The position numbers and the translations under genes are program-made. A DNA stretch of 60,712 bases from an uncultured Winogradskyella sp. GTDB taxonomy: Bacteria; Bacteroidota; Bacteroidia; Flavobacteriales; Flavobacteriaceae. Below the pieces are notes generated by a model. It was not told the origin of the DNA and ran no database searches. It saw only the letters and a list, made by a program, of their open reading frames with translations. The stretch covers positions 1 through 60,712 of the forward strand of contig CAJXVG010000003.1 in the NCBI GenBank assembly GCA_913061495.1, in the 5' to 3' direction. Position 1 is the stretch's first letter; the number at the start of each line of letters is the position of its first letter. Shown here piece by piece: positions 39,937 to 42,770 of this stretch.

Positions 39937-40362
39937 ATGAGTAAAAAAATTTTGGGACGTATTGACCGTGTTGATTTTCCGAGTTTGAATCTATTTGAAA
40001 TCGACGTAAAAATTGATACTGGTGCATATACATCTGCAATACACTGTTCGAAAATTATAGAAGAAAACAATACACTTCGCTGTACCTTTGAAAGTAAAGG
40101 TCACCCTAATTTTAAAAGTGAAGATATTATATTTGAAAACTACACTTACACGGATGTAAAAAGTAGCAACGGCCACAAGGAAAATCGTTATAAAATAAAA
40201 ACAGACGTTGTATTCTTTGGTAAAACATACAAGATTAACTTAACTTTAAGCACAAGAGCAGACATGAGGTTTCCTGTACTTATTGGAAGACAATTTTTAA
40301 AAAAGAAATTCATTGTCGATGTAGACTTAGAAAAACAGTCATTTAACACTAAAAACAAATAA
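39937..40362 (+). CDS. retropepsin-like aspartic protease of the RimK-associated family (PF05618)
   Basis: 141 aa. Although such proteins are often named ATP-dependent zinc protease, there is no HExxH or other zinc motif. Instead residues 24-36 ([13 protein letters not shown]) show the D27-T28-G29-A30 hallmark of retropepsins, and VLIGRQFL near residue 116 matches the second hydrophobic-Gly motif of the fold. One DTGA per chain implies a dimeric active site. Its stop overlaps rimK by one base (TAATG), and the two then run into an M14 hydrolase: the three form a translationally coupled unit. The substrate is not known; a RimK-modified protein or peptide is the obvious candidate. Confidence 0.87.
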
Positions 40363-41237
40363 TGAACATTGTAATACTTTCGCGCAATCCGCATTTATAT
40401 TCAACTCAACGTCTTGTTGAAGAGGCTGAAAAACGAAATCATGAGGTAGAGATAATTGACCCTCTAAAATGCGAAATAATAATAGAAAAAGAAAAGCCAA
40501 CTATCTATTACAGAGATCGTTATTTAGATTACGTTGATGCAATTATACCAAGAATTGGCGCATCTGTTACATTTTATGGATGTGCTGTTGTTAGACAGTT
40601 TGAAGAAATGGGAGTATTTACCATTGCCTCATCTGATGCCATAATACGTTCTCGCGACAAGTTGAGAAGTCTGCAACGTTTGAGCAAAGCAGGAATAGGG
40701 ATGCCCAAAACTGTTTTTACCAATTACTCTAGAGACGTTGAGGAAGTAATTAAATCTGTCGGAGGCACACCTGTAATCATTAAGCTACTAGAAGGAACCC
40801 AAGGTCTTGGAGTGGTTTTGGCTGAAACCAAAAATGCAGCTGAATCTGTATTGGAAGCTTTTAATGGATTACAAGCTAGAGTTATAGTACAAGAATATAT
40901 TAAAGAAGCCAAAGGCGCTGACTTAAGAGCATTAGTTGTAGATGGCCAAGTAGTTGGTGCAATGAAACGACAAGGTAAAGAGGGTGAATTTAGATCTAAC
41001 TTACATCGTGGTGGCTCTGCGAATATCATTAAATTAGATACAGACGAATTAAAATTAGCAATGAATGCTGCCAAAGCATTAAAACTACCTGTTTGTGGTG
41101 TAGACATGCTACAATCTGCACGCGGACCTTTATTATTGGAGGTAAATTCTACACCTGGACTTGAAGGTATTGAAAACGCCACCAGCAAAAATATTGCGCG
41201 TGCTATTATCACCTTTATTGAACGAAATAGAACGTAA
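40362..41237 (+). CDS. rimK: RimK-type ATP-grasp glutamate ligase
   Basis: 291 aa, an ATP-grasp enzyme closely matching E. coli RimK, which adds glutamates to the C-terminus of ribosomal protein bS6 and can also make poly-glutamate. Visible: N-terminal [33 protein letters not shown], the ATP loop [28 protein letters not shown] and the Mg-binding [15 protein letters not shown]. The target in this organism is not given by sequence. Second gene of the protease-rimK-hydrolase-fthfc operon. The C-terminal 40 residues of E. coli RimK beyond WIERH are absent. Confidence 0.95.
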
Positions 41238-41238
41238 A

Positions 41239-42207
41239 ATGAGTGATAAAAAAGTTTTGGAAATTTTAGGTGAATCCATTCCGCTTGGTAAAAGTGCAAC
41301 GGTAAATTTTGAAGTTGCCAAACTCCACACCCAAAACTCAATACAAGTTCCTATAATAATTGAACGTTCTAAGAAACCTGGCCCAACTGTTTTAATGACT
41401 GCTGGTATTCATGGTGATGAAGTTAATGGTGTTGAAATTGTTCGGCAGATTATTGCCAAAGGAATCAATAAGCCCAGGAAAGGAACTATTATTTGTTTGC
41501 CAGTTATTAATGTTTTTGGCTTTATCCATATGGATCGAGAATTTCCGGATGGTAGAGACCTCAACCGTGTTTTTCCTGGTATCCAAGGCGGATCGTTAGC
41601 TAGTAGAGTAGCATTTAAACTAGTGACCGAAGTTTTACCACACGCAGATTTGGTTTTGGATTTCCACACAGGTGGATCTGGGCGTTTTAATTCAGCTCAA
41701 ATTCGAATTGTACAAAATGACAATGCATTAAAAGAACTTGCAGAATTATTTGGAGCTCCATTTATTTACTATTCACAAAACCTTAAAAAATCCTTTAGAA
41801 ATACTTGTCACAAACTGAAAATCCCAATTCTTTTATTTGAAGGAGGAAAATCATTTCATATTGACAATACAATAACAAATACTGGTGTTAACGGCACAAA
41901 GCGAATCCTAAGTCATTTAGGCATGCTTAGCTCTAAATTTAAGGTTTCCCAACCTAAAAAACCTTGCATCTATGTTTCAGAAAGTAAGTGGATACGCGCT
42001 AAATTTTCTGGTATGTTTAAGTCAACGGTATTAATAAATTCTGAAGTAAAAAAAGGAGACATCCTTGGAAATATAACCGATCCATATGGTAGTTTTAACC
42101 ATTTTGTAAAAGCTCCAAATGATGGATATATTTTTAATGTGAATGAATCTCCTATTATCTATCAAGGAGATGCTATTTTCCATATTTCTACTAAGATTGA
42201 AGAATAA
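41239..42207 (+). CDS. M14-type succinylglutamate desuccinylase/aspartoacylase family hydrolase
   Basis: 322 aa. Zinc-dependent amide hydrolase of the AstE/AspA branch: zinc ligands His58 and Glu61 (GIHGDEVNG) and His142 (LVLDFHTGGSG), and the catalytic Glu200 in ILLFEGGK. It starts with ATG 41239, one base after the rimK stop; an earlier in-frame start inside rimK (41161) would only duplicate rimK sequence. Aspartoacylase and AstE free an acyl group from aspartate or glutamate; here the partner genes suggest a peptide or a glutamate tail instead, but this is inference. The C-terminal 100 residues look like a small beta-barrel lid. Confidence 0.92.
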   Translation: MSDKKVLEILGESIPLGKSATVNFEVAKLHTQNSIQVPIIIERSKKPGPTVLMTAGIHGDEVNGVEIVRQIIAKGINKPRKGTIICLPVINVFGFIHMDREFPDGRDLNRVFPGIQGGSLASRVAFKLVTEVLPHADLVLDFHTGGSGRFNSAQIRIVQNDNALKELAELFGAPFIYYSQNLKKSFRNTCHKLKIPILLFEGGKSFHIDNTITNTGVNGTKRILSHLGMLSSKFKVSQPKKPCIYVSESKWIRAKFSGMFKSTVLINSEVKKGDILGNITDPYGSFNHFVKAPNDGYIFNVNESPIIYQGDAIFHISTKIEE

Positions 42208-42770
42208 TGCCAAAGCACGATCTACGAATAAAATACAAAAAGCTTAGACAAAGTTTATCTTTTGAAAAAATAGAAGACTACAGTTTATCCATTTCCAACC
42301 AACTCTTAAAATTGGAGATTTGGGAGAAATCGCTCTACCATATTTTTTTAAATATTGAAGAGCAAAAAGAAATAAACACAGATTATATTTTAAATATTCT
42401 ATCTGGAAAAGATAAAAATATAGTCGTTTCTAAAAGTAATTTTGAAGATTACTCAATGACGCACTATTTACTTACTGACAACACAAAAATCCAAAAAAAT
42501 AATTATAATATTCCAGAACCTGTTGATGGTATTGAGATTACTCCAGAACAAATAGAAGTCGTTTTTATTCCCTTATTAGCATTCGATTTAAAAGGAAACC
42601 GAATTGGTTACGGCAAAGGTTTTTACGATCGCTTTTTAGCTAATTGTAAACCTGAAACCATTAAAATTGGCTTGTCCTTTTTTGATGAAGAAACTGATAT
42701 TTTTGAAGTTTCAACAAATGATATTAGATTGGATTATTGTGTGACTCCAAATCGAGTGTTTCAGTTTTAG
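42207..42770 (+). CDS. 5-formyltetrahydrofolate cyclo-ligase
   Basis: 187 aa. Converts 5-formyl-THF to 5,10-methenyl-THF with ATP. Motifs: KHDLRIKYKKLRQSLS at the N-terminus and the nucleotide/substrate loop VFIPLLAFDLKGNRIGYGKGFYDRFL at about 134-158. Overlaps the preceding stop by one base, so it is coupled to the RimK operon. Its last 47 bases overlap the end of the convergent lspA. Its link with the RimK unit may be only through shared transcription. Confidence 0.95.
   Translation: MPKHDLRIKYKKLRQSLSFEKIEDYSLSISNQLLKLEIWEKSLYHIFLNIEEQKEINTDYILNILSGKDKNIVVSKSNFEDYSMTHYLLTDNTKIQKNNYNIPEPVDGIEITPEQIEVVFIPLLAFDLKGNRIGYGKGFYDRFLANCKPETIKIGLSFFDEETDIFEVSTNDIRLDYCVTPNRVFQF

Follow-up and report, generated by a model that had tools for sequence, protein, structure and literature searches.

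What a RimK-type glutamate ligase does in a bacterium whose lineage has a ribosomal protein bS6 seemingly without an acceptor residue for it, and why its gene is coupled to those of two unrelated hydrolases, was the question raised by a locus of an uncultured Winogradskyella sp. (Flavobacteriaceae). The window, by which we mean the whole analyzed stretch of 60,712 nucleotides (contig CAJXVG010000003.1 of assembly GCA_913061495.1), carried at positions 39937-42207 genes for a RimB-like retropepsin, for RimK and for a zinc hydrolase of the AstE/AspA type in peptidase family M14. The best named hits of the window were to Psychroserpens and Winogradskyella. RimK genes are annotated as modifiers of S6. 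The explanation favoured here is that the three proteins form a module that makes and breaks poly-alpha-glutamate, to which we give a probability of roughly 0.45.

The genes were read on the plus strand as a tightly coupled run. The RimB-like retropepsin (PF05618, 141 aa, 39937..40362) was recognized by reading of open reading frames (ORFs) and profile search, the RimK-family ATP-grasp glutamate ligase (291 aa, 40362..41237) by ORF, profile and PDB match, and the M14 hydrolase (322 aa from an ATG start, 41239..42207) by ORF, profile and fold. The stop of the rimB-like gene and the start of rimK shared a TAATG (40360..40364), and the M14 ATG followed the stop of rimK after a single base (41238). 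Were M14 to start instead at 41161, on an in-frame TTG, it would have 348 aa and not 322. A second TAATG (42205..42209, plus strand) joined the M14 stop to the start of a fourth coupled gene, that of 5-formyltetrahydrofolate cyclo-ligase (MTHFS, 42207..42770, plus strand, from ORF and profile). In this way a plus-strand run of four genes without gaps was obtained, flanked by a divergent uvrC and a convergent lspA, and no RimA gene adjoined the rimB-like/rimK pair. A first-pass annotation of this DNA had described an operon of three genes; direct ORF reading confirmed the overlap and the one-base gap that it gave, but not its end of the operon, since MTHFS is coupled as well. Its aspartic protease motif, D27-T28-G29, was correct, and among the M14 catalytic residues that it named, H58 and E61 stood while H142 and E200 had to be moved to H143 and E201.

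The ligase matched PF08443 with 214.5 bits and Rimk_N with 145.4 bits, and scored 372.9 bits against the S6-glutamate ligase equivalog NF007764, above the cut-off of 331. Its best PDB matches were 7qyr (1.6e-107) and 7qys, titled 'probable alpha-L-glutamate ligase', which we take to be Pseudomonas enzymes. The RimB-like protein reached 61.3 bits with PF05618 (cut-off 27), and is called RimB-like because it missed the cut-off of the NCBIfam RimB equivalog. Judged from its predicted model, which had a mean predicted local distance difference test (pLDDT) score of 90.7, this protein has the retropepsin fold with the D-T-G motif at 40015-40023 (plus strand). The closest folds were 2pma (Z score 17.0) and RloA2 (16.8), two RloA structures matched with Z of 15.5-16.8, and retroviral proteases followed at about 9. 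In RloA, poly-Glu is contacted by K46, R114 and R137 (PMC12239564). Alignment to RloA2 (9g59) placed K25, R84 and R107 of the RimB-like protein at these positions, and the match was supported by equal spacing, with two residues from the Lys to the catalytic Asp and 23 from Arg to Arg. Among 18 relatives R84 and R107 were invariant and K25 was kept in at least 90%. By analogy with RloA, the RimB-like protein is predicted to cut poly-glutamate. Public records label proteases of this type 'RimK/LysX family protein' or 'ATP-dependent zinc protease', which are misleading names; such records were found at L311 6025-6486, L312 3614-4060, L313 3569-4027, L315 3633-4073 and L316 6993-7436 (L numbers denote loci and G numbers genomes throughout).

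The M14 protein matched the AstE_AspA_cat domain (PF24827) with 116.1 bits (cut-off 25) and fell below the NCBIfam equivalog cut-offs of AstE (21 against 305.65 bits), AspA (19.1 against 180) and DoeB (77.6 against 402.7). Its zinc site consisted of H58 (41410-41412), E61 (41419-41421) and H143 (41665-41667), with E201 (41839-41841) as the catalytic Glu, all on the plus strand. These four residues together with N109 and R110 were present in all 35 RimK-associated M14 rows (27 beside RimK, and 8 located elsewhere in a genome that has RimK). R253 was likewise found in 35/35 of these rows, versus 3/13 outgroup rows, in a count that left out one long outgroup row (L334), and R253, R156 and R187 were considered as candidate carboxylate binders. 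The predicted model (mean pLDDT 86.1) matched DoeB and 3cdx best (Z about 31), followed by CphZ (25), AspA (16-17) and other M14 carboxypeptidases (14-15). DoeB/EutE N-acetyl-diaminobutyrate deacetylase (6twm) and 3cdx share the whole-chain fold, and their zinc ligands and catalytic Glu align with those of the M14 protein; what separates the latter from DoeB is the profile score given above. Eukaryotic CCP deglutamylases were not among the 50 fold-match rows listed, where other M14 carboxypeptidases stood at Z of about 14-15, and this excludes nothing.

The distribution of the genes was determined in 296 Bacteroidota genomes, searched alike with M14, RimK (E up to 1e-40) and PF05618, with the M14 type delimited at 200 bits, a threshold that we set in the score range left empty from 156 to 208 bits. 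The M14 type occurred in 83/296 genomes, every one of which also had RimK (83/83), and in 0/204 RimK-less genomes (Fisher p 9e-64, kinship not corrected for). Such a count over genomes had been suggested by the first-pass annotation as a check, and it came out in favour of the linkage. The M14 gene lay beside RimK in 60 of the 83 genomes and apart from it in 23. RimB-like genes were also found in 83 genomes, all with RimK, and adjoined RimK in 82. In 54/296 genomes a RimK gene was adjoined by M14 and a RimK gene by RimB, although in two of these (G177 and G201) the coordinates placed M14 and RimB at different RimK copies. The linkage of the triad exceeds chance. In group f30 all three genes were present in 34/35 genomes and none of the three in the remaining one (G194); seven sampled genomes had M14 and RimK without RimB, the pair being adjacent in six. 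The wider AstE/AspA family occurred in 131/296 genomes, 46 of them RimK-less, so the link to RimK is a property of this M14 type, not of the whole family. In a 49-row tree, the M14 rows found apart from RimK fell inside the RimK-associated rows.

The association was also seen where the locus had been rearranged. RimK adjoined M14 in 61/80 named loci, and 16 of the 19 named loci without RimK had UvrC directly before M14, as in the window. In all 17 genomes of group g10 a single open frame of RimBK length (456-490 aa) covered both RimB and RimK; M14 was present in 15/17, never beside that frame, and was lacking in G076 and G275. In G161 of this group the M14 locus was the uvrC-lspA locus with MTHFS, and the RimBK-length frame was on another contig. 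A pair of M14 and MTHFS kept at the uvrC locus without RimK was seen at L214 and L215 (G161 and G173) and in Flavobacterium (L272, L276, L277 and L278). Outside the Bacteroidota the triad occurred in the order RimK-M14-RimB in Vibrio europaeus and V. nigripulchritudo, and in the order RimB-RimK-M14 in three Salinivibrio, Photobacterium DA100, the roseobacter Phaeobacter and the cyanobacterium Acaryochloris; Photobacterium GJ3 had a RimK-M14 pair and no RimB match in the stretch. The 12 plasmid records that matched M14 best had RimK next to it, by coordinates, in 11 cases. The exception, a 31.8-kb V. parahaemolyticus record, was absent from the 40 RimK rows listed and had its M14 match split over two frames.

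Both the RimK chemistry and the RimB cleavage are established in Pseudomonas. There RimK adds Glu to RpsF and also produces free poly-alpha-Glu, while RimB cleaves tails of poly-glutamate and has a stimulating effect on RimK (PMC7343187, PMC11957791), including on the synthesis of the free polymer (PMC11957791). RimB leaves 4-5 Glu on RpsF (PMC7343187) and needs an unbroken run of at least about five Glu to cut (PMC11957791), and RloA fails on six or fewer (PMC12239564), so that RimK and RimB alone would leave short oligomers and stubs, and an enzyme trimming from the end has a clear job. An M14 enzyme that removes the terminal amino acid would be the obvious complement to RimB, much as CphZ, which has the same fold, completes the breakdown of cyanophycin. 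In the proposed cycle, RimK would use ATP to join glutamates by alpha links into chains that are free or extend a C-terminus, here probably one other than that of bS6; the RimB-like retropepsin would cut long chains internally; and the M14 protein, as a zinc carboxypeptidase or dipeptidase, would take glutamates off the chain end, clear the stubs of 4-5 residues and the short oligomers, and return glutamate to the pool. The substrate of the M14 enzyme, the acceptor of the chains and the purpose of the module we infer. The first-pass annotation had spoken of a writer with two erasers. Its RimK/RimB half was borne out by the Pseudomonas work, the retropepsin fold and the kept poly-Glu contacts, whereas the M14 protein is a putative eraser, judged by gene linkage, co-occurrence and family chemistry. 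If the M14 enzyme does finish the work of RimB, the three enzymes would make up a complete poly-glutamate cycle, and the role of RimK where S6 cannot be the target would become testable.

Three known systems resemble the module in part. Like Pseudomonas RimABK and RimBK (PMC7343187, PMC11957791), it has RimK and RimB retropepsin genes side by side, with K25, R84 and R107 kept; it differs from them in that it has no adjoining RimA but M14 and MTHFS instead, that its relatives' bS6 lacks a terminal Glu and that its RimB-like protein is far under the NCBIfam RimB cut-off. RloABC of P. aeruginosa likewise pairs an ATP-grasp enzyme with a poly-Glu-cutting retropepsin of the same fold, but the Rlo proteins are secreted or membrane-bound and accompanied by an inactive transglutaminase (PMC12239564), of which the operon in the window has no gene. 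In the cyanophycin cycle, CphA, CphB and CphZ act as ATP-grasp polymer maker, polymer-cutting protease and AstE/AspA-fold finisher, CphZ splitting the dipeptide in the last step of breakdown (PMC12661447); the polymer and the cutting protease are different (CphB is an exopeptidase), and the RimK of the window scored 60.2 bits with the CphA model, whose cut-off is 850. The RimK-RimB half of the module is not new, having been described in Pseudomonas; what is new is the M14 enzyme as a partner, the link that ties it to RimK, and bS6 tails that lack Glu. No report of a link between RimK and M14 was found in the open-access literature searched, and priority is not settled, as Iyer et al. 2009, reportedly on amidoligases, may mention such neighbourhoods. 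The word 'desuccinylase' was absent from PMC11957791, PMC10092738 and PMC12239564, and 'carboxypeptidase' from PMC7343187 and PMC11957791.

Several observations weigh against a poly-glutamate cycle of three enzymes. The RimB-like protein scored 58 bits with the NCBIfam RimB equivalog, whose cut-off is 200, and the nearest solved relatives of the M14 protein carry deacylase and dipeptidase names. The M14 gene is not obligatory, because it was lacking in 9/92 RimK genomes (7 with RimB and 2 without). Nor is it always beside RimK, since RimK and RimB occurred without it in Vibrio THAF190c and V. campbellii replicons (stretches of 11-13 kb) and RimBK-length frames were found, also in Aureibacter and Thioclava. 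A single clade for the 35 RimK-associated M14 rows was merely not rejected (approximately unbiased test, p 0.179). Finally, in a relatedness-aware test of the association on the bS6 tree, 4 independent pairs on supported branches gave a mean of 3.0 in the same way and 0 in the opposite way, which was not significant; with so few pairs the test cannot reach significance.

It is rather unlikely that RimK glutamylates another protein whose tail RimB and M14 shorten and remove, in which case the locus would encode a protein switch and not a free polymer. The operon and the co-occurrence would speak for this equally, and RimK may serve further functions wherever RpsF lacks a terminal Glu (PMC11957791). 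However, no acceptor gene travels along with the module: besides M14, RimK and RimB, genes recurred in at most 4 of 20 neighbourhoods (ORFs of at least 90 aa). Genome-encoded poly-Glu C-termini, considered as acceptors, were rejected, as five Glu codons followed by TAA or TGA occurred at 0 places in the window's own genome (TAG was not covered), though RimK would not need such an end.

Less probable still is that the M14 protein hydrolyzes N-acyl amino acids or dipeptides in a separate metabolic task and is only co-regulated with RimK. The closest characterised folds, DoeB, CphZ and AspA-type enzymes, would suit such a task. Against it stands the absence of this M14 type from the 204 RimK-less genomes, and shared regulation alone does not explain why the gene is kept in the 23 genomes in which it lies apart from RimK.

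The first-pass annotation mainly proposed that bS6 or the ribosome is glutamylated reversibly, as happens in Pseudomonas, and that M14 trims the tail alongside RimB; for this lineage such a reading is quite improbable. It was favoured by the score of the window RimK with the S6-glutamate ligase model, by the action of RimK and RimB on RpsF in Pseudomonas (PMC7343187, PMC11957791) and by acidic bS6 tails in RimK-bearing genomes of group f30. The tails were compared in 90 genomes (54 with RimK and 36 without), made up of the 30 best-scoring loci and 60 picked among the matches listed, 290 genomes having matched. With RimK, the last bS6 residue was A in 19, D in 17, K in 6, N in 5, E in 4 and Q in 3; without RimK it was E in 12, A in 9, D in 6 and others in 9. 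A terminal Glu was thus rarer with RimK (4/54) than without (12/36), and acidic tails, with at least five D/E in the last ten residues, were found in 24/54 and 9/36, respectively. In the 4 independent pairs on the bS6 tree, for which 83 of the 90 rows were counted, RimK went together with neither an acidic tail nor a terminal Glu. In congeners 8/8 bS6 ended in Ala after a basic stretch, for example KMKVKAKAKA, and in the window's family 16/16 had A, K or N as last residue and no more than one acidic residue among the last ten; none of these ended in Glu or Asp. A bS6 of the genome that holds the window was looked for in its draft and not found. Because these tails lack a terminal Glu, the label 'S6-L-glutamate ligase' probably misstates what RimK does here. 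With the C-terminal Glu that would serve as RimK acceptor found in 0/24 bS6 read from the genus and family, bS6 was rejected as a substrate in this family on tail sequence, and as far as these tails were read a ribosomal target appears unlikely here. In three genomes without RimK at E up to 1e-40 (G023, G028 and G174; L115, L116 and L121), bS6 ended in at least six encoded Glu.

MTHFS followed M14 in 68/80 named loci, nearly all of Flavobacteriales and including loci without RimK, and adjoined it in only 2/20 loci of a second set, a linkage almost confined to Flavobacteriaceae; on these counts it was ruled out as a core member. Remodelling of folate side chains, in which RimK would add alpha-glutamates to folylpolyglutamate and M14 trim them beside MTHFS acting on 5-formyltetrahydrofolate, fits the coupled MTHFS gene and the family names of the RimK relatives MptN and CofF, which glutamylate cofactors, but is highly improbable in view of the second set, of the absence of MTHFS from the listed genes of seven annotated non-Bacteroidota triads (whose gene tables are incomplete) and of the poor fit of folate to RimB, which works on long poly-Glu.

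For the poly-glutamate module, a wider role may be imagined. It is possible, though doubtful, that many marine and other bacteria hold an intracellular reserve of poly-alpha-glutamate, with RimK as polymerase, RimB as endo-cutter and M14 as exo-cutter, which would be a store of glutamate and counter-ions parallel to cyanophycin and unrelated to the ribosome. A gene for MscS and/or a Mg2+/Zn2+ transporter (CorA, MgtE or ZntB) lay in the 5-6 kb flanks of 7/9 non-Bacteroidota M14-RimK loci, which are not independent because 7/9 are from Vibrionaceae. The flank in Acaryochloris had a cation:proton antiporter instead, and none of five flanking ORFs scanned in Photobacterium DA100 encoded MscS or a Mg2+/Zn2+ transporter. 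No such transporter was found among six proteins from three Bacteroidota loci, of which one protein was a universal stress protein and one a glutamate dehydrogenase. Since several Vibrionaceae modules stand beside MscS, Mg2+ transporters and one ectoine cluster, these neighbours give a hint, and only a hint, that the module may serve osmoregulation or ion homeostasis. In Vibrionaceae, MscS was beside the triad or pair at L311, L315, L316, L322, L345 and L346, most of which also had Mg2+ transporters; some triads or pairs were near universal stress or GGDEF genes, and ectoine synthase genes were found in V. nigripulchritudo.

A second cluster of a ligase and hydrolases was detected in the same genome, at 1350-5267 of contig C63 (L352). 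It encodes a MATCAP-family peptidase (PF08014), a GshB-like ATP-grasp enzyme (406.8 bits with PRK12458, cut-off 408) and an AspA-like M14 protein, and it is a separate system on the same plan, a ligase with two unrelated hydrolases. Eukaryotic MATCAP relatives process tubulin tails. Among the 296 genomes PF08014 occurred in 16, and an AstE/AspA match lay within 3 kb of it in at least three of these (G000, G072 and G291).

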